Assembly (NCBI GenBank): GCA_028293625.1
Contig: JAQGOL010000042.1
Span: 248,001 to 312,000, forward strand
Reading direction: 5' to 3'
Source of the DNA: Chthoniobacteraceae bacterium
Lineage (GTDB): Bacteria; Verrucomicrobiota; Verrucomicrobiia; Chthoniobacterales; Chthoniobacteraceae
DNA length: 64,000 nt
Shown here: positions 13,306 through 59,968 of the stretch, piece by piece
Layout of the letters: each line of letters opens with the position of its first letter
How positions within the stretch are numbered: the first letter of the stretch is position 1
The notes under the pieces: generated by a model
Databases searched by the model: none
What the model was told of the DNA's origin: nothing
Seen by the model: only the letters and a program-made list of their open reading frames with translations
Position numbers and translations under genes: made by a program

Positions 13306-14685
13306 ATGACTCCCTACTCCTCTCCACCCGTCATGCCAGGCTCTACTCGAAGCAGTGCGCGCTCAATTTCCTGGCTGACAGCGACCTGCCTTGTCGTGGC
13401 CAACATGGTCGGTACCGGAGTCTTTACCAGCCTCGGATTCCAGGTCGGCGATCTTCCTTCCGTTTTCACCCTTATGGTTCTCTGGCTGCTTGGCGGCGTT
13501 TGCGCGTTGTGTGGAGCGCTTTCCTACGCCGAACTGGCTGCCGCGATGCCCCGCTCGGGCGGCGAATACCATTATCTCTCTGAGATCTATCATCCCGCTG
13601 TCGGTTTTCTCGCGGGCTGGATCTCTGCCTCGGTTGGATTTGCCGCTCCCGTGGCGCTGGCGGCGATGGCTTTCAGCACCTATTTCTCCAGCATTTTCCC
13701 CAATGTAGCTCCTTTGCCGGTCTCGTTGGCGGTGGTCGCGTTGGTGACTACGATTCACCTGCGGGGCGGCACCATTGGCAGCATCTTCCAGAACGCGGCC
13801 ACTTCACTCAAGGTGCTACTCATTCTGGCGCTGATCACTTTCGGATTCACCTCCACCCACCAGGAACCGGTCAGCTTTCTGCCACAACCCGGCGATGCGA
13901 AGCTGATGACAAGCACTCCTTTCGCCATCAGCCTCGTCTTCGTCATGTATGCTTACTCGGGTTGGAATGCCTCGACCTATATTGTTGGCGAAATGCGCGA
14001 CCCGGCTCGGGATATTCCGCGCTCGTTGGGACTTGGAACCCTCCTCGTAATCACACTTTACCTCGCCCTCAATGCCGTGTTCCTGCTGGCGGCCCCAATG
14101 CCGGAACTCGCCGCCGCCAAGGATAACGTCGCGCATGTCGCTGCGGCACACATTTTTGGCGCCACCGGCGGCCGGTTTATGGCGGGGCTCATTTGCGCGG
14201 GCCTTATTTCCACCATCAGCGCGATGATGTGGGTTGGACCTCGGGTTACCATGGTGATGGGAGAAGATTGCTCCGCGCTGAGCTGGCTGGCATTCAAGCG
14301 CAATCAAATCCCTGTTGTCGCCATCGGCGCCCAGGCGCTGGTTGTGATCGTGCTCCTCTGTACGGCGACCTTCGCCTCTGTGCTCACTTACGTGCAGTTC
14401 AGCCTCACCTTCTGCTCTTTTCTAACCGTGCTCGGCGTTTTTGTTCTGCGCTTTACTCAACCCGCTCTGCCGCGCCCTTACAAGACGTGGGGCTACCCGG
14501 TGACCCCGCTCATCTTTCTGGGTGTAAGCGCCTGGATGTTATGGCAGATCCTCGTTTCGCGTCCGGCAGAATCACTCTGGGGACTCGTCACCGCGCTGCT
14601 CGGGCTGGCACTTTATTTTTTCTCACCCACACGGCCCGCTGCTGGAGCCCGATTGGAAAACGGACCTGCAAATCCACGTTTATGA
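13306..14685 (+). CDS. APC-family amino acid permease
   Basis: This 459-residue integral membrane protein (ATG 13306; an in-frame GTG at 13285 is possible) has about 12 hydrophobic segments. The first helix has the APC substrate-binding break motif MVGTGVFTSLGF, followed by LSYAELAAAMPRSGGEYHYL, which is diagnostic of the amino acid/polyamine/organocation superfamily. A later helix reads VMYAYSGWNASTYIVGEM. Substrate cannot be assigned; the LAT/APC-type amino acid exchangers are the closest group I recognise. Its stop codon overlaps the start of the following secreted-protein gene (ATGA at 14682-14685), so the two are translationally coupled. Confidence 0.92.
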   Translation: MTPYSSPPVMPGSTRSSARSISWLTATCLVVANMVGTGVFTSLGFQVGDLPSVFTLMVLWLLGGVCALCGALSYAELAAAMPRSGGEYHYLSEIYHPAVGFLAGWISASVGFAAPVALAAMAFSTYFSSIFPNVAPLPVSLAVVALVTTIHLRGGTIGSIFQNAATSLKVLLILALITFGFTSTHQEPVSFLPQPGDAKLMTSTPFAISLVFVMYAYSGWNASTYIVGEMRDPARDIPRSLGLGTLLVITLYLALNAVFLLAAPMPELAAAKDNVAHVAAAHIFGATGGRFMAGLICAGLISTISAMMWVGPRVTMVMGEDCSALSWLAFKRNQIPVVAIGAQALVVIVLLCTATFASVLTYVQFSLTFCSFLTVLGVFVLRFTQPALPRPYKTWGYPVTPLIFLGVSAWMLWQILVSRPAESLWGLVTALLGLALYFFSPTRPAAGARLENGPANPRL

Positions 14686-15707
14686 AATTCTGTTTATCAA
14701 TTCTCTTCGTCCTCTGCGCCATCGCTTCCGGCAGCGTGGCACAAACCTCTTCCCCGAACGATCGGGCGCGCTACCTTGCCGGTCTGCCAGTGCGCAATTC
14801 CGCCTTCGATCCGCTCACCCGTGGCGGCTCCTACCCTGAACACGTCGCATACCTTAACAAGTCCTGGGCGAAAAAAGAGGGCCTTGCCCTGAATCCGGTC
14901 CGCTCCTGGGCAGCGGGCGCCGGCGGCGATTTTCACAACCGGTCCGGCACTCTCTATTACATGTTCAGCGGGCCTGATTTTCTCTACGCCCACAGCCTCT
15001 TTCCCAACGCTTCAACCTATATTCTTTGCGGCACGGAACCGGTCGGTAACGTGCCCGAGCTTACCCAAATTCCGCGCGAAACCCTTGATGCTTCCATGGC
15101 CGACCTGCGCCGGGCCTTGAACACGATGCTGAATTTCAACTACTTCGTTACCAAGGAAATGCGAGTCTACCTACAGGGAGGCCAGCTTGGCGGAACGATG
15201 CCCGTGCTCTATGTCTTCCTGGCCCGGCTCGGCTGCACAATCCAGGAAGTAAGCCTCGTATCGACACCCTCGACTGGAGTGCGGATTGTTTTCACCGGCC
15301 CCAATGGCGGCTCAAAGACTCTTTACTATTTTAAGACGGATCTTTCCAATGGAAGCAGCAGCGGTTTCCTTCGCTGGTGCGCAAGCAAAGGTCCCGGGAT
15401 GAGCCTGCTAAAGGCTGACTCTTATTTGCTGCATAACGACGGGTTCTCGCAGGTGCGCAGGTTTATTCTCGATAACAGCCGGGTAATCGTTCAGGATGAC
15501 GCCGGGATCCCATTGCGGCAGTTTGACGATCGCTGGACGCTCCGGTTCTATGGAGATTACGCCGCTCCTATTGAACTCTTCAAACAATACCAGCAGCCCG
15601 ACCTGGCAGCCGCTTATCAACGCTCACCCCGGCAACCTCTCTCTTTTGCATTCGGTTATCATTGGCAGCGCGAACGCGCTGTTTTGATGGTCGCCACCCG
15701 CAAATAA
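14682..15707 (+). CDS. Secreted protein of unknown family, copy 1 of tandem pair
   Basis: The product has 341 residues with a clear Sec signal peptide (residues 1-20, AIASGSVAQ cleavage region). I do not recognise the family. It is homologous over its whole length to the next gene. Shared segments include YMFSGPDFLYAH, a TEPVG/IEPVG turn, PVLYVFLAR followed by GC, a WC pair in the middle and a C-terminal PLSFAFGY. Three or more conserved cysteines suggest disulfides in the periplasm. Translational overlap with the upstream amino acid permease suggests a related role, perhaps ligand capture or processing, but that is inference. The start is fixed by the ATGA overlap and the signal peptide. Confidence 0.85.
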   Translation: MKFCLSILFVLCAIASGSVAQTSSPNDRARYLAGLPVRNSAFDPLTRGGSYPEHVAYLNKSWAKKEGLALNPVRSWAAGAGGDFHNRSGTLYYMFSGPDFLYAHSLFPNASTYILCGTEPVGNVPELTQIPRETLDASMADLRRALNTMLNFNYFVTKEMRVYLQGGQLGGTMPVLYVFLARLGCTIQEVSLVSTPSTGVRIVFTGPNGGSKTLYYFKTDLSNGSSSGFLRWCASKGPGMSLLKADSYLLHNDGFSQVRRFILDNSRVIVQDDAGIPLRQFDDRWTLRFYGDYAAPIELFKQYQQPDLAAAYQRSPRQPLSFAFGYHWQRERAVLMVATRK

Positions 15708-15712
15708 GCTCT

Positions 15713-16783
15713 ATGCGCTTTAAACTGCTCGCCCTTGCCGCCAGTCTGCTTGGATCCCAGCTTCTGGCAGAGGAAACTCCAACTCCCGACGATCAGGCTC
15801 GGTTTCTTGCCGGACTGCCGGTGACCGGAACGCCGCTTCAGCCCATTGCCCGAAGCGCTGCATGGACTGAACACGCAGCCAGGCTGGAGTCGGCCTGGCA
15901 GAAACTCGAAAACCGCCAGCTCACGCCGATTGGAGCGTGGTCAACTCATTACCTGAGCGCGACCGCGGCTGGGCACGCTCCGCTTTTCTATATGTTCAGC
16001 GGGCCGGACTTCCTTTACGCCCATGCTTTTTTCCCGAGCGCCTCGACCTACGTGCTTTGTGGAATTGAACCGGTCGGCTCGCTGCCTGATATAACGCAAC
16101 TCCCTCGCGAGGCGCTTGAACCCTCCTTGCAGACGCTCGGCCAGGCGCTCGGTTCCATCCTAAGCTTCAGCTTCTTCATCACCAAAGAGATGAAGGTGCA
16201 CCTTGAAGAGACCCGGCTCAGCGGCACGCTTCCGGTCCTTTATGTTTTCCTTGCACGCTCCGGCTGCCACATTGACGACGTCCGCCTGGTTGGCCTCGAC
16301 AAAGACGGCACGCTTATAGAAGGAAAAGGTCCGACTTCCGGCGTTAAAATCGTCTTTACTTCGCCCGGAGGGCAGCCTGCTCAAACACTCTACTATTTTT
16401 CAAGTGATCTATCCGATGGGCCGGCCGACAAAACCGGGTTCTTGAAATGGTGCGACTCGCTGGGGGAAGGTGATGGGTTTCTAAAAGCTGCTTCCTACCT
16501 CATGCATGGTGGCAACTTCAACACGGTCCGTAAATTCCTTCTTTCCCACAGCAAAGTCATCGTGCAGGACGAGTCCGGAGTTCCGATCAAATACTTCGCA
16601 CCAGCCGATTGGCGGTTGCGCTTTTTTGGAAGTTATCCCGGTCCAATTGAAATCTTCAAGCAACATACCCAGCCGCTCCTTAAGGAACTTTATAGGCAAA
16701 GCAATCCGCCTCCACTAAGCTTCAGCTTCGGCTATCGCTGGCATCCCTCCGAATCAACCCTCATTCTTGCGGAGAGAAAATAG
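15713..16783 (+). CDS. Secreted protein of unknown family, copy 2 of tandem pair
   Basis: The product has 356 residues from ATG 15713, five bases after the previous stop; the signal peptide is residues 1-18 (SLLGSQLLAEE). It is a full-length paralogue of the preceding gene, with the same order of conserved blocks (YMFSGPDFLYAHAFFP, CGIEPVG, PVLYVFLARSGC, TLYYFSSDLS, VIVQDESGVP, PLSFSFGYRW) and a short insertion in the middle (about residues 195-207). I recognise no catalytic motif. Its 3' end overlaps the convergent serine hydrolase gene by 23 bp. Function unknown. Confidence 0.85.
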   Translation: MRFKLLALAASLLGSQLLAEETPTPDDQARFLAGLPVTGTPLQPIARSAAWTEHAARLESAWQKLENRQLTPIGAWSTHYLSATAAGHAPLFYMFSGPDFLYAHAFFPSASTYVLCGIEPVGSLPDITQLPREALEPSLQTLGQALGSILSFSFFITKEMKVHLEETRLSGTLPVLYVFLARSGCHIDDVRLVGLDKDGTLIEGKGPTSGVKIVFTSPGGQPAQTLYYFSSDLSDGPADKTGFLKWCDSLGEGDGFLKAASYLMHGGNFNTVRKFLLSHSKVIVQDESGVPIKYFAPADWRLRFFGSYPGPIEIFKQHTQPLLKELYRQSNPPPLSFSFGYRWHPSESTLILAERK

Positions 16784-17816
16784 CGTTTTTCTTCGCGATC
16801 CCAAGTAGAAGCCGTAGAAAATCGCCATCGGAAAACCGGGCATTGAGGCCTTGTCGTACGACGATCAGGTCGAGCGAGGGAATGACAAAAAGCCGCTGGT
16901 AGCCTGAGCCGATGGCAGCCACCAGATCCGCTGGCGCATCCCGGCAAATACAGGCGTTGCGCCAGTCCTGCTGCTGGCGCTTGAGTTCGAGCATGTTTTC
17001 GATATCGAACTCGCGTGCTCCAGGCTGATTAGCGGCGCGATTGTTCCAAAAGCCCATTCCAAATGCGGGATTGGCATTTGTTCCGCGCATACATTGGGCC
17101 AGGGATTTCGCGGTCAGCACAGGCGCTCCGTGTTGCAAAATAAGCCGGCCAACCCGCGCCCATTGCTCCGCGGTGAGTTCAAAGCCTGAAGCCAGCAGCG
17201 GGTTGCCGGTGCGATCGGCTTTGTAACGCTGCGATCCGAGCCCAAGCGGTTTGAGGACTTTTTTTTCCAGAAAGTCCGTCGGCGTTTGATTCCGGAGAGC
17301 CAGCTTTCGCTTGAGCACCTCGTCGAATACCTGCAATGCAGCCGGGCCATAAATAAACCGTTCTCCGGAATCGGCCACGGACGTCACCCTCAGTGCAACC
17401 GCATTACGATCAGGCACCTCGTCGCTGTGAAGGTGGAACTCCGAATCGAGTCCGCTTGTAAAGTTCAGCAGTTCGCGAATGGTTACGCCCGACTTTCTTC
17501 CCTCCGCGCGCCATTCAGGGATCGTCTCAGAAACCCGTTCATCAAGACTTAAGACCCCCTGCTCTTCGGCCTGGAGCGCCGCAAGGATCCAGAATCCTTT
17601 TGTGCCACTGTAAATCTTGTGTGGTTCGCGCGAAGAAGCGCCATTGCTGTAATGACTGAAAATTTCTTTGCCGTTCTGAATCACGAGCATCGAGAAACCC
17701 CTCCGGTTCGCCGAATAATCGGCAGCGGATTGAAGCTGGGTGCGGCTTAATTCGCCCGCGCGCGACGCCGCTGCAAAATAAAGAAGGAAAAGCAGGATTG
17801 ATGATACGGGTTTCAT
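16761..17816 (-). CDS. Beta-lactamase/penicillin-binding-like serine hydrolase
   Basis: The product has 351 residues from ATG 17816, where a lipoprotein-free Sec signal begins (MKPVSSILLFLLYFAAASRA); an upstream in-frame start at 17891 would put 25 polar residues before the signal and is unlikely. The fold is that of class C beta-lactamase and related esterases. The catalytic SxxK is SGTK in YSGTKGFWILAAL, and NFTSGLDSEF is the usual downstream block. The second motif that is normally YxN reads YGP here (ERFIYGPAALQVF), as in a subgroup of the family. A role in beta-lactam resistance should not be assumed; peptidase or esterase activity on cell-wall or small ester substrates is more likely. 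Confidence 0.85.
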   Translation of the reverse strand: MKPVSSILLFLLYFAAASRAGELSRTQLQSAADYSANRRGFSMLVIQNGKEIFSHYSNGASSREPHKIYSGTKGFWILAALQAEEQGVLSLDERVSETIPEWRAEGRKSGVTIRELLNFTSGLDSEFHLHSDEVPDRNAVALRVTSVADSGERFIYGPAALQVFDEVLKRKLALRNQTPTDFLEKKVLKPLGLGSQRYKADRTGNPLLASGFELTAEQWARVGRLILQHGAPVLTAKSLAQCMRGTNANPAFGMGFWNNRAANQPGAREFDIENMLELKRQQQDWRNACICRDAPADLVAAIGSGYQRLFVIPSLDLIVVRQGLNARFSDGDFLRLLLGIAKKNAIFSPQE

Positions 17817-17921
17817 TGGCGCGCCACCGTCGATGGGTTCGTCGCTTCTTTCAACTGTTGGAATGCCGGTTGATATCACTCTTGACGGCAAATTCTAAGT
17901 GCTCAGATTCCCAGGTTAATT

Positions 17922-18364: not shown

Positions 18365-19534
18365 TTAAAAAAGGATGCCCAAGGTAAGCTGCGCGCCGCG
18401 TGTATAGACCTCGTAGATGAGCCCATCGTGGCGGTAATTAACGAACAGGCAACGATATCCCGCTTCGGCAAAGACTCTTTTGGAAAGCTGGCAGCCCAGC
18501 GCGCCGTAAACCTGCCATGTCAAATCCGAGCCGACGCCGAAGCCGCCGATATCCCCGCGTCCTGTAAGATAAAAGGCATTGCTGAGGTTATATCTGGCGC
18601 GAAAGCCAATATACGGATCAAACCAGTCATTTGACTTGGAGTAGGTGCTGCCAAGCGTGCGTTTAAGAGTGCGGCTGATCGCTCTTTCCAGATCGGCTTT
18701 TGACGCGTCAACCCGCCGCCTGACTTCCGCTTCACTCATCCGGGCCCGCCCCCTTAAAGAGGAAGCTATTTGCGCGGCCCGCTCCTCGATAATCGAGCGG
18801 ATACGCGCCTTCAATCGATCCGCCGCCGCCGCGCCAAGAGGACCAATCGGCAATACCGGCTTCCGTCCCTCCAGTATCTCCAGGTCATCGGAAAGTCGGG
18901 CATCCACGGCAGCGCGGATTCGCTCCCTAAACCGGCCATTACTTAAAATACCAAGCAATCTATCTCGAATCTGATCGCTTGCGGCATCAACCAATCGGGC
19001 GCTTTCGGCCTCAATGGAGTCATCGTTGCGGTGTAACGCAATCTCCTGGTATAGGTTTGTATAGCGGGTTCCCAAGAGTAAATCGAGCCATCCCCTTGGC
19101 GTATCAACCACTCTCCAACTCAACGAAAAATCGATCAGATACTCATTAACCTGAACATCCACACTGGAAAGCATTCCACCGGTACCTACATTGTCGGATA
19201 ATCCAAGATATAGAAACCCGTTCTCGATCCCGAATCGGCCTTTCCTGGCTTCCCCCTCAAAGGCAGCGGTAAAATCGACATGCCGAAGGATTGTATCGAC
19301 CCCGAGGCTGATATGGGAGGTATCGCCATTTACTCCGACATCGCCATAAACGCCCGCCAGCCATGACGGGCTGCCCGGCTTAAACTGCCAGCGTTCGGGA
19401 TTTTCAACTGGAATCGTCTCCTTTTTCTCCAACTCGATTTCACCGGCGCTGCCAAGGCGGCCCTTAACAAGCAATAAGCAGATCGAAACTCGAAGGTAAG
19501 TTCTGATACACAAAAAAAAGCGGCGCGCTTTCAT
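18365..19534 (-). CDS. Probable outer-membrane beta-barrel protein with helical insert
   Basis: The product has 389 residues. A signal-like N-terminus (MKARRFFLCIRTYLRVSICLLL) is followed by alternating hydrophobic strands such as WLAGVYGDVGVNG, VDFTAAFEGEAR and YLIDFSLSWRVVD. From about residue 170 to 285 the character changes to a charged, helix-forming region rich in Arg, Glu and Ala (DAASDQIRDRLLGIL; RLKARIRSIIEERAAQIASSL; VDASKADLERAISRTLKR). Barrel-like strands then resume (DPYIGFRARYNLSNAFYLTG; FAEAGYRCLFVNY), and the protein ends in phenylalanine, as barrels assembled by BamA do. I do not recognise a named family. Outer-membrane location is inferred. Confidence 0.65.
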   Translation of the reverse strand: MKARRFFLCIRTYLRVSICLLLVKGRLGSAGEIELEKKETIPVENPERWQFKPGSPSWLAGVYGDVGVNGDTSHISLGVDTILRHVDFTAAFEGEARKGRFGIENGFLYLGLSDNVGTGGMLSSVDVQVNEYLIDFSLSWRVVDTPRGWLDLLLGTRYTNLYQEIALHRNDDSIEAESARLVDAASDQIRDRLLGILSNGRFRERIRAAVDARLSDDLEILEGRKPVLPIGPLGAAAADRLKARIRSIIEERAAQIASSLRGRARMSEAEVRRRVDASKADLERAISRTLKRTLGSTYSKSNDWFDPYIGFRARYNLSNAFYLTGRGDIGGFGVGSDLTWQVYGALGCQLSKRVFAEAGYRCLFVNYRHDGLIYEVYTRGAQLTLGILF

Positions 19535-54098: not shown

Positions 54099-55166
54099 TT
54101 AAACGTTTTGTAGCGATACACCAGCAGCCAGTGCATTTGGCTTAGTAAAAAGATAGTGCGACACAATCCATTCCTCGCCGTTATCAAATGCCCAAAGTTC
54201 GGCGCACGCTAAAAAGAAAACACGCCAGTAAACCCACCAGCGCCGGGTTTGCTCCAGTCCGTAGGTTTCACTAAAAAGAGGCCATATTTCAGAACGATGC
54301 GTGTCCATGTTGCGAAGCCACGCTTCAGCCGTCCTGGCGTAATGAGTGCCTGAGACGCGCCAATGTTTGCTGATCCTAAGATCGTTTTGAAAGTAGAGAA
54401 GCAGATCATCCGAGGGCATCTGGCCGCCGGCAAAGAAGTATCGGGTCATCCAGTCCGAGGGACCGCGATCTTCATAATGGTAAGCCATCTGGCGATGGGT
54501 GAAGATATGCACAAAGAGCTTTCCTCCCACCTCTAACCAGCGGGCAACCTTGCCCATGAGCAACTCATAATTCTTCATGTGCTCGAACATTTCCACCGAG
54601 ACCACACGATCAAAGCCGCCATCGGCTTCAAACACGTTCATGTCGGCCGTAATGATCGTCAGATTCTTAAATCCACGGCGTTGCGCTTCCTCATCAATAT
54701 AAAGCTTCTGAGTCCGCGAGTTGGATACTCCCGTGATCCGCGCCTTTGGATAATGTTCAGCCATCCACAACGAGAGCGATCCCCAGCCACAGCCAAGCTC
54801 AAGAATCCGCTGTCCGTCGGCAAGCTCAGCCCGCTGACAGGTTAGCTTCAACATCGCCTCCTCAGCTTCATCGAGCGACACGACGCCTTCGCTCCAATAG
54901 CCGGAACTATACTTGATTCGTTTGCCCAGCGCCAACTGATAGAACCGGGTTGGCACCTCGTAATGCTGTTCGTTGGCCGCGCTGGTTTGCACGGCGATCG
55001 GACTCCGTTTCAACCCATCAATATGCGCCTGCAATAACGCCCCCTGCGCCTCCACATCCGCGCCGCGTTTCTCGCGCAATGTCTGTTTAAGCAGGCGCCG
55101 GATGCCGACGCGTATCAAACAATCAGGAAGCGAGTTGGTTTCAAGCAACTGGTCGAGCGAGATCAT
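54099..55166 (-). CDS. Coclaurine N-methyltransferase-like SAM methyltransferase (Cfa superfamily)
   Basis: The product has 355 residues. The SAM motif is [20 protein letters not shown] (from residue 121). The rest agrees better with plant coclaurine N-methyltransferases and their bacterial relatives than with Cfa: [55 protein letters not shown] and [14 protein letters not shown]. The histidine of the Cfa bicarbonate site (HIFPG in the paralogue at 56593-57870) is Tyr here (RYFFAG). It ends the lipid operon and overlaps the DUF1295 gene by ATGA. The substrate may be an unsaturated acyl chain or an amine; an alkaloid is not implied. Confidence 0.88.
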
Positions 55167-55951
55167 GAATTCGATAAATGGGTTTTCCTAAACCACGGAA
55201 CAAATGCACTCGTTGTCCGCTGATACTCCCGGTAAAGGGCTCCCTTGCTTTTTAACGCATACTCTTCGGTCAACGGGATGCCGGTTACTTTGAAAAGGAA
55301 ATAGAGCATCAAAAACGGGCAGATCAGCCCGGTCCAGCCCCACGGCGACCCGAGCGCGGCAATGCTGAATCCAGCCCAGACAAGTGATTCAAAAAAATAG
55401 TTTGGGTGCCTGGAGTATCGCCACAAGCCGCCCTGGCATACCGCGCCGCGATTTGCCGGCTCGGATTTAAATCGTCTCATCTGTTCGTCAGCGAGTGATT
55501 CCCCCATCAGCGCCAGTGCGGCCAGGATTAAGCCGGCGATTTCGATTGGACGCAGAGTCGACGAATCGTTGAATGACGCTGCCAGGAAAGGCAATGAAAA
55601 GAGCCCGACGACGAGCGCCTGCAATTCGAAAAAGACCAGGAACATGCCCCGCCCTCTCCATCGCTCACGCAGCTTTTCATACCGGATATCCTCCTTTGGA
55701 TGATGCTTAATCACCCGCAGGAGGATATACGTGCCCAGTCTCAAACTCCACGCCGCGCCGATTAGGGCGAATGCACCTTTGCGAAGTGGATTCCCAGGTC
55801 CGCTCAACGCATAAAATGGCGCCAGCACCGCGATGCCGTATGAAAAAGCAACATCGAGCAGCCCGTAATTTTCAATTCTTACGCTGACAGCCCAGGTCAA
55901 CGCAAAACAGGTCAGCGCGATTAATAGTCCGGTCCCTAGTAGGAGAAGCAT
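55163..55951 (-). CDS. DUF1295 (steroid 5-alpha-reductase-like) membrane protein
   Basis: The product has 262 residues with six or seven hydrophobic helices. The C-terminal motif [18 protein letters not shown] is characteristic of DUF1295 and related membrane reductases and methyltransferases of the ICMT/5-alpha-reductase superfamily, where it binds NADPH or SAM. It overlaps the following methyltransferase start by four bases, so the two products are probably made in equal amounts. In this operon it could reduce a double bond of a modified acyl or isoprenoid chain; that is inference. Confidence 0.88.
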
Positions 55952-56033
55952 AGGTTAGACGGATGGCGGACAAAGCAAAGAGTTCCCACAAGCCGCATCG
56001 AAGCAAAAATCGAGAGAGGCACTTGAAACGACA

Positions 56034-56372
56034 TCAGCTTTGCCGTCTGCGGAGCAAAAGCTCTTCGATCCCGGCGCCCGCCGGCAATCGAAACAGCTGG
56101 ATGAGCAGATAGCTGGCCATCGCGATATTTCCAAGAAGCAAGATCGCCAGCAACCAGAGAACCCGGACCGCCACGGAAGTTTCTTTGTAAGCCACCCAAA
56201 TGTAGAAGGTAAGAAAGGCAAAATAGGTATCAAAAAGCGTGGCGATAAACCAGGGATGACCGGCAACAGGACGCGGGATATTCCAGAGTGCAACGCTGCT
56301 GCTCGCCCAGCTTGTCACGGCAAGCATCGTCACAAGGACAATGAGAAACCCAATTCGAAGCAGGCAGATCAT
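56034..56372 (-). CDS. DUF1475-like small membrane protein
   Basis: The product has 112 residues from ATG 56372, which overlaps the preceding stop by four bases and so decides the start. Three hydrophobic helices: ICLLRIGFLIVLVTMLAV, PWFIATLFDTYFAFLTFYIW and VRVLWLLAILLLGNIAMASY. The second (WFIATLFDTYFAF) matches DUF1475, a family found in lipid-modification clusters of several bacteria. No enzymatic residue is evident. Confidence 0.75.
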   Translation of the reverse strand: MICLLRIGFLIVLVTMLAVTSWASSSVALWNIPRPVAGHPWFIATLFDTYFAFLTFYIWVAYKETSVAVRVLWLLAILLLGNIAMASYLLIQLFRLPAGAGIEELLLRRRQS

Positions 56373-56581
56373 TCCCCGGATTGGCTCTCGCTTCTCTTCA
56401 GGCCGAGTGCTTCGTAACACTTGCAGTTGCCGGAAAGCGCGCGGTAGATGAGCCACGCACCGCCGATAAGAAGCAGCGGGCGACGAATGGCGCCAACCAT
56501 GAGTGCCGCACCAAGGATGCCAGTGGCAAGGCGTTCAGTGTCGCTTATATTGACTGGAGATCTTGAATTATTGGATGACAT
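56369..56581 (-). CDS. YgaP-like/DUF2892 small membrane protein
   Basis: The product has 70 residues. It fits the DUF2892/YgaP membrane module: NISDTERLATGILGAALMVG, then RRPLLLIGGAWLIYRALSGN and the Cys pair of CKCYEALGL. Stop and next start share ATGA at 56369-56372. Its role in the operon is unknown. Confidence 0.8.
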   Translation of the reverse strand: MSSNNSRSPVNISDTERLATGILGAALMVGAIRRPLLLIGGAWLIYRALSGNCKCYEALGLKRSESQSGE

Positions 56582-56592
56582 GGATTGAGGAG

Positions 56593-57870
56593 TTAAGGAA
56601 CGGCGGGAGGACGGTTCAGAGTGCGATTATTGGGCCGCGTATAGATTGCCTGAACCACGCTGATATTGCGACTGGCAAACGCAGCTTCACAATATTGCAG
56701 GTAATAATTCCATTTCCGAAGAAAACGCGCATCAAACCCCAGTGCCCGCACTTCCTCTAAGCGCGTATTGAAAGTCTCCCACCACGTATGGAGCGTTCTG
56801 GCATAGGAGGCACCCAAATCTTCAAGATGATGAAGGTAAAGATCGCTGGTTCGATTAATGGCCTCATTGACGCGGCCAACGCTCAAAAGAAGCGAACCGG
56901 GGAAGATATGTTTTTGAATCCAGTCAACTCCCCTGCGCAACTCGGCATGCCGCGAATCCGGCACGGTGATATATTGAAAACCAGCCAGACCGCCGGGCCG
57001 AAGCAGCTCATTGATTTTCGAAAAATAAGTTTCCAGGTAACGGTCTCCCAAAGCTTCCATCATTTCAATGGACGCCACCTTGTCATATAAACCAGTGATA
57101 TGGCGGTAATCCTTCAGCTGGACGTCGATCTTTCCGGAAAGCCCCTCCTTTTCAATCAGCTCCCGAGCGAACCTGAATTGTTCTTCCGAAATGGTCACGG
57201 TGGTGATACGGCATCCAAAGTGTCTCGCCGCGTGGAGGCTGAAACCGCCCCAGCCAGTCCCAATTTCAAGCAGATGATCAGTGCTTTGCAAATGCAGCTT
57301 CCGGCAAAGCACGTCATACTTTGCAATCTGTGCCGATTCAAGCGATTGCGCCGGATCGGTGTAGTACGCGCTCGAGTAAGTCATCGTTGCATCAAGCCAA
57401 AGCCGGTAGAATTCGTTCCCCAGATCGTAATGCTCCGATATATTGCGCCGGCTGATATCGACACTGTTAGGACGCAGCCAATGTCCCACCCGATTGACTA
57501 TCTTCAGAGAGTTAAAAAGAAAAGCCCGGGTCCGCGATCCGGACATGCCCGGGGAGTTTTCGACATTTAAAATAGCCCAGGCGATCACCTGCTCGATGCT
57601 GTCTGTTTCCCAGTCCCCATCGACATACGATTCGCCAAAACCGATATCGCCAAACAACACGCATTTTTGAAAAAAAACAGGGTCGCGCACGGCAATGCAT
57701 GCGCTGGTGCCGGCGCCTTGAGTTCCGAACTCCAAAGTCCTCCCGCCCGGGAGCTCAAGCTGCAAATATCCAAGATTCATCCGCGCGAACGCACGCAGAA
57801 CCAGAGTCTGATAGATGCCATGGGAAACAGGCAGAGGGGCGGGCATCACTTTAGTCGTGGTGTCGTTCAT
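56593..57870 (-). CDS. cfa: Cyclopropane-fatty-acyl-phospholipid synthase
   Basis: The product has 425 residues. Cfa adds a methylene from SAM to a cis double bond of membrane phospholipid acyl chains. The N-terminal lipid-binding domain (about residues 20-110) precedes the SAM domain LEIGTGWGGFSLHAARHFG (from 201). Bicarbonate-site residues expected in active Cfa are present: Glu269 in ASIEMMEALGDRY and His321 in QKHIFPGS, with ARTLHTWWETF carrying the tyrosine region. Standard architecture. It overlaps the DUF1365 gene start by ATGA and precedes the small membrane proteins by 11 bp. Confidence 0.95.
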   Translation of the reverse strand: MNDTTTKVMPAPLPVSHGIYQTLVLRAFARMNLGYLQLELPGGRTLEFGTQGAGTSACIAVRDPVFFQKCVLFGDIGFGESYVDGDWETDSIEQVIAWAILNVENSPGMSGSRTRAFLFNSLKIVNRVGHWLRPNSVDISRRNISEHYDLGNEFYRLWLDATMTYSSAYYTDPAQSLESAQIAKYDVLCRKLHLQSTDHLLEIGTGWGGFSLHAARHFGCRITTVTISEEQFRFARELIEKEGLSGKIDVQLKDYRHITGLYDKVASIEMMEALGDRYLETYFSKINELLRPGGLAGFQYITVPDSRHAELRRGVDWIQKHIFPGSLLLSVGRVNEAINRTSDLYLHHLEDLGASYARTLHTWWETFNTRLEEVRALGFDARFLRKWNYYLQYCEAAFASRNISVVQAIYTRPNNRTLNRPPAVP

Positions 57871-58706
57871 CGATTTTTTTCCGCAATGGAGGAGTGAGGA
57901 TTAAGCACGCCTTGCTGAAGATGGGCGTTGGCGGCCTTGGAATGAAATGGAATGCGCTTGAGCCAAAGCAGAAAGGCCTCCCAATGGATTAAAAAAATCA
58001 CGCGAAGCGTCAGGAACGGGTATTTAAGAGCAAACCAGGCAAGCCGCGCGCTTGTCAGTGCAACGCGCCTCCCTGTGAGTGTGCTAAGGAGAATACGTTG
58101 CGATCCTTCAATATCATCGATTTTGATGGCAAGAAATTCGTCGGGCACGCGTAACCTGAAATCGAACTTCACTTCCAGGCCGGAGAAGGGCGAGACATAA
58201 AAATGTTTCGGAGTAACCAGGTGAAAAAGATTCGCCTCGCCGCGATGCGGAAGGAGATACGGCTTCATTTCGCCGAACGTATTGCCGACCTGCGCGACAG
58301 CGCAGAACGGCTCGCCTTGCGCATTGAAGCAATAATAGAACGAAATCGGGTTGAATATATAACCCAAGACCCTGGGTAATGTGATCAGCACAGCACGGCC
58401 GCCTTCCGGGAAATCGATTCCGCTTTGCTTCAGGTAAACAATGAGGTTTTCCTTGATCGTACCACCGGTCAGCGTCAGGTGGTCGCGATCGCGGAACGAG
58501 TATAGATTCCAGCGGTTCCGGCTAAACCCAATTAGCCGCGAATCCAATCCGTCAATTTCATCCAGATCGATGCAAAGATAAAAGAGCCGGTAGCTGAAGC
58601 GATGCTGCCTGGGGCTCAGACGATGATGCATGACCGAGCATTCATACAGGCACGAATGCCGGCTTGAATTCGTGGTGGCTTCGAGGGCGTGTTCTAACTG
58701 CCCCAT
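57867..58706 (-). CDS. DUF1365 domain-containing protein
   Basis: The product has 279 residues from ATG 58706 (the frame opens at 58736). It fits DUF1365: CLYECSVMHHRLSPRQHRFSY at the start, FCLDLDE-like LYLCIDLDEIDGL, a central GYIFNPISFYYCF and AQVGNTFGEMKPYLLP, and HFYVSPFSGLEVKFDF. The family is nearly always next to a COG2907 flavoprotein and a Cfa-like methyltransferase, as here. Function unproven. There is no signal peptide; one weak hydrophobic segment near the C-terminus (FALKYPFLTLRVIFLIHW) could associate with the membrane. It overlaps the flavoprotein gene by 13 bp. Confidence 0.93.
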   Translation of the reverse strand: MGQLEHALEATTNSSRHSCLYECSVMHHRLSPRQHRFSYRLFYLCIDLDEIDGLDSRLIGFSRNRWNLYSFRDRDHLTLTGGTIKENLIVYLKQSGIDFPEGGRAVLITLPRVLGYIFNPISFYYCFNAQGEPFCAVAQVGNTFGEMKPYLLPHRGEANLFHLVTPKHFYVSPFSGLEVKFDFRLRVPDEFLAIKIDDIEGSQRILLSTLTGRRVALTSARLAWFALKYPFLTLRVIFLIHWEAFLLWLKRIPFHSKAANAHLQQGVLNPHSSIAEKNR

Positions 58707-59968
58707 ATAGGCTCTCTTGTTAGGCTCCGGGCACATTCGAGCGCGCTGGTAAAGCCGTCTTCATGAAACCCGTATTTAAACCAGGCGCCGCAAAAATAGG
58801 TCGTCTGATTTTGATGATTAAGGGCCGGGAGCTCGCTTTGAGCCGCGACCGCCGCAAGATCAAAGAGCGGGTGCTCATATTCAATCTCACGCAGCACACT
58901 GCCCGGGGCGATTCGATTAGCCGCATTGAGCGAGACAAAGTAGTTCTCGCGCTCGGATACACCCTGCAGGCGATTCATCCAGTAATGGGTTGTCGGCAGC
59001 AAACGGCCGTCTTCACCCTTTTCGACCCGGTAATTCCACGAAGCCCAACACCGCGGCGTATGAGGCATGACTGAACTGTCGGTATGCACCGTGGCCAAAT
59101 TCCGCTGATACTTAAATTTACTTAGCAACCGGACCTCGGTTGCAGTCGGTTCCGCCAGCAACGCCAGCGACTGGTCGCCATGGCATGCCATAATTAGCTT
59201 GTCGAATTCTTCCTTGTTCCCCCGGCAATCCTCGATGATCACTCGATCCGTCCCCCGAATGACCCGCACGGCCCGGCGCCCCAGGTGGATGCGGTCCTTG
59301 AACGGGAGCGTCATTTTCTGGACGTATGACCTGGCCCCATCGGTTACCGTCCGCCACGGGTGCTGCGTGTGAAGTCCAAGAAAACCGTGGTTGTGCCAGA
59401 ATCTTAAAAGTGTCCTGGCCGGAAACTCGAGCATCAGATCAGGCGGCGTCGACCAGACCGCGCCACCCATCGGAACCAAATACCAATGCAGCATATCCTC
59501 GCCGTATCCGCGTTTGGTAATATATTCGCGCAGCGTGCAATCGGAGAAGCGCGGATCTTCCAGGGCGGCAACCGCTTCAGAGTTAAACCGATTGATATTC
59601 ATCAGCATCCGCCAGAAGCGCAGGTTCCAGAGATTGCGCCGCTGGCCAAAAAGCAGCCCAAGGCTCGACCCGTTGTATTCAAGGTTTGCCGGACGATACT
59701 GGACACTAAATGACATGTCTGTTGGCTTGGTCTCAACATTCAACTCACGAAACAGCCGGGTAAGATTCGGATAAGTCGTCTCGTTGTAGACCATGAACCC
59801 GGTGTCGATCGGAATCAGGCGCTCCTGCTCCGGGACAATGATCGTATTGGTATGGCCGCCCGCGTAATCGTTCTGCTCGTATAAGGTTAAATCAAACTCC
59901 TTATGCAGGAAATGCGCGCACCCGAGCCCTGAAATTCCGGTGCCAATAATGGCCAGCTTTTTCCTCAT
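58694..59968 (-). CDS. COG2907-like FAD/NAD(P)-binding oxidoreductase
   Basis: The product has 424 residues from ATG 59968; the frame is open to 60106, but the extra residues are not related to the family. The FAD motif IIGTGISGLGCAHFL begins at residue 6, followed by LYEQNDYAGGHTNTI, typical of the COG2907 amine-oxidase-like flavoproteins. Later blocks are VYNETTYPNLTRLF, HWYLVPMGGAVWST and a C-terminal FCGAWFKYGFHEDGF. Relatives act on unsaturated or methylated fatty acids in furan- and methyl-branched fatty acid pathways. Here it starts 8 bp after the desaturase stop. The reaction (hydride removal or addition on an acyl chain) is inferred. Confidence 0.92.
   Translation of the reverse strand: MRKKLAIIGTGISGLGCAHFLHKEFDLTLYEQNDYAGGHTNTIIVPEQERLIPIDTGFMVYNETTYPNLTRLFRELNVETKPTDMSFSVQYRPANLEYNGSSLGLLFGQRRNLWNLRFWRMLMNINRFNSEAVAALEDPRFSDCTLREYITKRGYGEDMLHWYLVPMGGAVWSTPPDLMLEFPARTLLRFWHNHGFLGLHTQHPWRTVTDGARSYVQKMTLPFKDRIHLGRRAVRVIRGTDRVIIEDCRGNKEEFDKLIMACHGDQSLALLAEPTATEVRLLSKFKYQRNLATVHTDSSVMPHTPRCWASWNYRVEKGEDGRLLPTTHYWMNRLQGVSERENYFVSLNAANRIAPGSVLREIEYEHPLFDLAAVAAQSELPALNHQNQTTYFCGAWFKYGFHEDGFTSALECARSLTREPIWGS

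Follow-up and report, generated by a model that had tools for sequence, protein, structure and literature searches.

Results

Gene Layout at the Locus

The window, which is the whole stretch of 64,000 nucleotides that was analysed, comes from a 6.8 Mb assembly of a Chthoniobacteraceae bacterium of the phylum Verrucomicrobiota (GCA_028293625.1, contig JAQGOL010000042.1, positions 248,001 to 312,000). It includes a permease gene, gene A and gene B, located head to tail in this order on the forward strand (Table 1). The listed start codon of the permease gene is GTG, and an in-frame ATG is found at 13306-13308 or slightly further downstream. The first-pass annotation, made from the sequence alone, had described two paralogues with signal peptides lying 5 bp apart, the first one overlapping the stop codon of an APC permease by ATGA. 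This arrangement is seen in the sequence, and a Pfam match confirmed the nature of the upstream gene. The ATGA overlap likely results in translational coupling of the permease and gene A.

Table 1. Coordinates of the genes and features at the permease-A-B locus (positions are those of the window)
Feature	Position	Strand	Basis
APC amino-acid permease, LAT-type (SLC7-like) by sequence, 466 aa	13285..14685	+	PF13520, E 5.6e-46
ATGA overlap, permease stop/gene A start	14682..14685	+	sequence
Gene A, exported protein with predicted class I methyltransferase fold, 341 aa, ATG start	14682..15707	+	ORF, AlphaFold model and fold matches
Gene A signal peptide, MKFCLSILFVLCAIASGSVA	14682..14741	+	read by eye
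A residues 95-99, FSGPD, loop after predicted strand 1 (90-93), place of SAM motif I	14964..14978	+	conservation and model
A residues 119-122, EPVG, end of predicted strand 2 (112-117), place of the ribose-binding acid	15036..15047	+	conservation and model
A residues 244-247, KADS, end of predicted strand 4 (239-243)	15411..15422	+	conservation and model
A residues 271-272, QD, end of predicted strand 5 (266-271)	15492..15497	+	conservation and model
Spacer between A and B, 5 bp	15708..15712		sequence
Gene B, paralogue of A with the same motifs, 356 aa, ATG start	15713..16783	+	sequence and alignment
Gene B signal peptide, MRFKLLALAASLLGSQLLA	15713..15769	+	read by eye

Past the signal peptides, the A and B amino acid sequences align over their full length with 49% identity and 68% positives (E 6e-120), a resemblance well above chance. 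All the sequence blocks that had been quoted as common to both proteins are present, but the cysteines they share, which had been listed together with the blocks, are not conserved across the family. In the family alignment, C116 and C233 are kept at weighted frequencies of about 53% and 69%, and therefore they are not family-defining. The idea of a cysteine-based disulphide was abandoned after no invariant cysteine was found in the family. Conservation of the export signal was assessed by the hydrophobicity of the N-terminus rather than with a signal-peptide predictor. A strongly hydrophobic N-terminus ahead of the conserved domain was found in 81 of 85 relatives, in agreement with the signal peptides read in A and B. 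The same threshold was passed by 2 of 22 cytosolic controls of the TPMT family, a rough figure in that some of the control sequences were in the wrong frame.

Family Identity and Distribution

Neither A nor B matched any Pfam or NCBIfam entry, even at E 1, and the family has no match in PHROG. A profile search of the PDB sequences returned nothing above chance (best E 0.05), and only scattered chance matches were obtained when each member of a 38-member alignment was compared with Pfam. By sequence the family is thus as unfamiliar as it had appeared at first reading, when no known domain was recognised.

Relatives were found by an alignment-based scan of GTDB, where a query consisting of one protein had given none. 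At least 577 places, confirmed by tblastn in a collection holding one genome per GTDB species, include relatives. The family is present in 21 of the 40 genomes of the window's own family and in 147 of the 213 genomes of the host order; it is patchier across the phylum, with 26 of 387 genomes drawn from Verrucomicrobiota. Among the 80 loci that were kept, 33 rows are assigned to Pseudomonadota, mostly Bradyrhizobium and Hyphomicrobium, with identities of about 40-43%. These copies form a single clade within the diversity of Verrucomicrobiota (FastTree, support 99), the pattern expected from one transfer. In this tree the A and B proteins of the window also fall into separate subclades. Both subclades include orthologues from other families, which indicates an old duplication after which both copies were retained. 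This history fits the earlier suggestion that both are functional. A phage or plasmid origin was considered and rejected, since no relatives were detected in viral contigs or plasmids and there was no PHROG match.

Link to the Permease

Whole genomes searched with a profile of the permease revealed a discrete permease subfamily, whose presence was scored as strong matches (E <= ~1e-95). In the host order, 139 genomes have both the permease and the exported protein, 8 have only the exported protein, 9 have only the permease, and 57 have neither (Fisher P 3e-33, uncorrected for relatedness). The window's own family includes 20 genomes with both genes, 18 with neither, and 1 of each discordant kind; the concordant presence or absence is also observed within its genera (g1, g2, g7 and g8). 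Many of the discordant genomes are incomplete assemblies, and the match in one of those with only the exported protein (G042) is marginal (E 2e-4).

In 116 of the 158 loci with enough upstream sequence, a co-oriented permease gene precedes the partner at a distance of at most 1.4 kb, and the adjacency extends to Bradyrhizobium, Hyphomicrobium and further Verrucomicrobiota families. When the two genes are adjacent, the start of the partner is most often no more than 25 bp away from the stop codon of the permease (80 of 108 pairs), and the 4-bp overlap found in the window is repeated in 23 of the 108. Genomes G001, G027, G041, G043 and G083 keep both genes although they are on separate contigs. 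An intervening gene was found in three loci (L268, L270 and L272), and that of L268 codes for an Fe/Mn superoxide dismutase. The apparent frames of 700-900 aa in many loci were dismissed as open by chance except for that of L175, a true fusion where permease and partner share a stop-free in-frame ORF of 860 codons (one MAG, weak evidence). The frame in L180 also joins permease and partner but contains Ns. The neighbours examined are lineage-specific and do not share a common pathway. In the most distant clade, an alpha/beta hydrolase gene has been added to the operon.

The coupling of permease and partner is nearly obligate across Verrucomicrobiota. It had been proposed from the gene order in the window, and the counts described above make it stronger than first stated; the opposite case, relatives occurring mainly away from a permease, was checked and failed. 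The permease and its exported partner are a real and conserved two-component module, which is undescribed: in a search of the open-access literature, neither a SAM-dependent methyltransferase that is exported nor a permease-partner module of this kind was found. A, B and the permease very likely constitute one functional module.

The Permease Subfamily

The nearest solved relative of the permease is BasC (6f2g, E 3.4e-40), followed by human y+LAT1, b0,+AT and Asc1. Residue K176 of the permease, in TM5, aligned with BasC K154, and Y259, in TM7, aligned with BasC Y236. Across 26 coupled permeases, K176 is at least 90% conserved and Y259 is invariant. K154 and Y236 of BasC are described as fully conserved in LATs, which are exchangers, and as governing the sided affinity of BasC (PMC6472337). 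Having the LAT hallmark Lys and Tyr, the permease is, judging from its sequence, a LAT-type amino-acid exchanger.

Predicted Fold

The AlphaFold model of A, built with 71 sequences, had a pLDDT of 92.1 and a pTM of 0.90, and that of a Bradyrhizobium relative (residues ~50 to the end) reached 90.0 and 0.90. The two models represent two phyla but are not fully independent because most of their alignment rows are common to both. In Foldseek, the PDB entry ranked first for the A model was mouse TPMT (E 7e-5, probability 1.00). Most of the next matches were methyltransferases as well, and the TM-scores were low (0.31/0.43). When the top 1000 candidates were realigned in VIA, 50 of the 50 matches listed were class I SAM-dependent methyltransferases or larger proteins containing a domain of this type; the best Z among the matches listed was 9.0, and TPMT (2bzg) had a Z of 8.9 with 4.1 Å over 174 aa. 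The Foldseek candidates for the Bradyrhizobium model were weak and mixed, including FAD enzymes and kinesins. In VIA, all 50 of its 50 matches listed were class I methyltransferases, the best one being TPMT (Z 9.1, 3.6 Å over 173 aa). According to the tool's own warning, Z values of 7-8 are common by chance, and the argument for the fold is based on the uniformity of the matches listed in both runs instead of on single Z values. A two-lobed binding-protein fold was absent among the matches listed, a list that cannot exclude that fold, and no Pfam SBP domain was matched; likewise, the matches listed for both models, which cannot exclude other folds, include no glycosidase-like fold. The first-pass annotation had hinted at a periplasmic capture or processing function. 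The models point to a class I methyltransferase-like fold rather than to a classical binding protein or a hydrolase, and the A/B family very probably has a Rossmann fold of this kind. An hhalign comparison of the A/B family with the TPMT and Methyltransf_25 profiles gave 0.1%, while the positive control, TPMT against Methyltransf_25, gave 98.5%. In view of the lack of profile homology and of a GxGxG motif, the family is not classed as a methyltransferase.

Conserved Residues and Putative Cleft

The loops that follow strands 1, 2, 4 and 5 are the sites of cofactor and catalytic residues in class I methyltransferases. The corresponding positions in A were deduced from the strand order of the model (Table 1). 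The GxGxG of motif I after strand 1 is absent across the family, which has FSGPD in its place, with one strongly conserved Gly; the weighted conservation is about 0.99 for F95, G97 and D99, 0.97 for P98 and 0.81 for S96. E119, located 21 residues past P98, has a value of 0.96; the most distant clade carries Q at this position. K244 and S247, both at about 0.99, belong to a motif that reads KADS or KAAS in the family, and the pair at the end of strand 5 has values of 0.91 (Q271) and 0.99 (D272). Few residues of the family are conserved as strongly as F95, G97, D99, E119, K244, S247, Q271 and D272. The 28 positions after the four strands average 3.19 bits versus 2.08 elsewhere, an excess with a P of 0.0003 when compared to randomly placed windows. 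With its strand-end loops conserved, the predicted cofactor or substrate pocket looks maintained.

Discussion

A and B very likely act, once exported, as partners of the LAT-type exchanger whose gene precedes theirs. A mechanism based on the exchange of SAM and SAH, which ties together the fold, the export and the exchanger, is tentatively proposed. The exported protein would be a periplasmic enzyme of methyltransferase-like activity, and the permease would supply the methyl donor, moving cytoplasmic SAM out and SAH or another amino acid in. That this SAM/SAH exchange feeds a periplasmic methyltransferase-like reaction is a possibility with odds clearly below even. With more reserve still, bacteria of two phyla might carry out extracytoplasmic methylation through SAM/SAH exchange by a LAT-type permease and an exported non-canonical methyltransferase. 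Several observations argue against the participation of SAM. Neither the window nor any of 18 loci showed a riboswitch for SAM, SAH or other ligands, and the neighbours examined include no SAM-metabolism gene. The missing GxGxG, the hhalign value of 0.1% and the low Foldseek TM-scores point in the same direction, and SAM is not known to occur in the periplasm. Furthermore, the permease has an ordinary alpha-amino-acid LAT signature, which makes a small neutral amino acid a simpler substrate.

About equally likely is a role without catalysis, where the methyltransferase fold has been repurposed as an accessory that captures or senses the permease substrate in the periplasm, which might be an amino acid or derive from SAM, and delivers it or gates the transporter. 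The export of the protein, its near-obligate coupling to a transporter, the loss of GxGxG, the lack of a methyltransferase sequence signal and the conservation of the putative cleft residues speak for this role. However, APC permeases do not normally need a binding protein, in some genomes the copies are apart from the permease, and the Lys, Asp, Gln and Glu conserved at the strand ends look as suitable for catalysis as for binding. The strong conservation of D99, K244, S247, Q271 and D272 could also reflect another chemistry on a Rossmann-like fold, by which a periplasmic enzyme releases or modifies an amino acid for import by the permease. The alpha/beta hydrolase in the operon of the most distant clade is in line with this unlikely alternative, but the structural relatives among the matches listed are methyltransferases and not hydrolases or oxidoreductases.

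Animal LAT light chains require an ectodomain partner, 4F2hc or rBAT, and the module could be a bacterial counterpart of these heteromeric amino-acid transporters in which the LAT-type permease is bound, and thereby stabilised or regulated, by an exported protein that is soluble. The closeness of the permease to BasC and to the light chains y+LAT1, b0,+AT and Asc1, the tight translational coupling of the adjacent pairs (starts within 25 bp in 80 of 108, 4-bp overlap in 23 of 108) and the single natural in-frame fusion (L175, 860 codons) are consistent with such an assembly. Nevertheless, the signal peptide of the partner looks cleavable and is found in place of a membrane anchor, no invariant cysteine is available for a disulphide, and the predicted fold is unlike that of the heavy chains, which are glycosidase-like; BasC, from bacteria, has been studied without a partner (PMC6472337). 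The conserved cleft would also be left unexplained by a purely structural role, and we consider this proposal the least probable of those discussed. A purely structural subunit and an enzyme with other chemistry are both less likely than the SAM-based mechanism and the ligand-binding accessory. Riboswitches, neighbours and literature do not decide between the SAM-based mechanism and its rivals.

These findings define an undescribed family that is gained and lost jointly with one transporter subfamily and that occurs in Verrucomicrobiota and in Alphaproteobacteria of the Bradyrhizobium type, with hundreds of genomes carrying it. The partner family is a handle on this orphan transporter subfamily. 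A methyltransferase fold predicted in an exported protein is unexpected outside the cytoplasm, and it raises the question of whether SAM or a SAM-like ligand reaches the periplasm by transport and is used in that compartment. If neither is, the fold would have been recruited as a transporter partner, with a role similar to that of the outer subunits in the heteromeric amino-acid transporters of humans.

The A/B family resembles class I methyltransferases such as TPMT, histamine N-methyltransferase, COMT and PPM1/LCMT1 in its predicted Rossmann fold with a C-terminal strand, in the long helix ahead of strand 1, in the acidic residue that ends strand 2, and in the conservation of polar residues where strands 4 and 5 end. 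In contrast to them, it is exported, lacks GxGxG and detectable profile similarity, contains additional strands and helices inserted between the second and the fourth strand, and has a near-obligate amino-acid permease partner. The permease is like the LAT/SLC7 exchangers, including BasC (6f2g), in its sequence, TM5 Lys and TM7 Tyr, but its subfamily is a discrete one, encoded together with a partner that is exported. The heteromeric transporters formed by a LAT light chain and 4F2hc or rBAT also pair a permease of the LAT type with a second protein at the outer face of the membrane; whereas 4F2hc and rBAT are membrane-anchored, glycosidase-like and disulphide-linked, the partner described here is soluble with a predicted methyltransferase fold. 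The transport reaction proposed for the permease is that of mitochondrial SLC25A26, a SAM/SAH exchanger (PMC9239748). SLC25A26 belongs to another transporter family and has no exported partner, and for the permease of the window we infer the reaction.

Genes Adjoining the Permease and Its Secreted Partner

A serine hydrolase gene converges on gene B, the second of the two partner paralogues in the window; the ends of these two genes share 23 bp. Genes of the cluster to which this hydrolase belongs (c2) recur 3′ of the partner in other loci. A different hydrolase, of the alpha/beta type, is encoded immediately 5′ of the permease in the related loci L047, L048, L049 and L050 of the most distant clade (27% identity).

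In three loci of the Verrucomicrobiota family f18 (L268, L270 and L272), an extra gene separates the permease from the partner. The one in L268 codes for an Fe/Mn superoxide dismutase whose N-terminus is Tat-like, and those in L270 and L272 resemble it as judged by eye. In locus L175, known from one MAG contig, permease and secreted partner lie within a single open frame of 860 codons, where the partner signal peptide becomes an internal hydrophobic segment.

Features in the window and in other permease–partner loci
Feature	Location	Strand	Note
Beta-lactamase-family serine hydrolase	window 16761-17891	-	PF00144
389-aa protein	window 18365-19534	-	signal-like N-terminus
Two cyclopropane-fatty-acid-synthase-like methyltransferases and DUF1365 protein	window 54099-58736	-	PF02353
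Alpha/beta hydrolase	L047 4955-5917	+	
Alpha/beta hydrolase	L048 5593-6618	+	
Permease–partner fusion	L175 2214-4793	+	
Intervening gene	L268 7394-8245	-	

Other Genes in the Window

The 389-aa protein, for which a convincing match was not found in Pfam, has a long charged helical middle and a C-terminal half that looks like a beta-barrel. The PF02353/DUF1365 genes are likely a lipid-modification cluster, which is unrelated to the permease–partner module.
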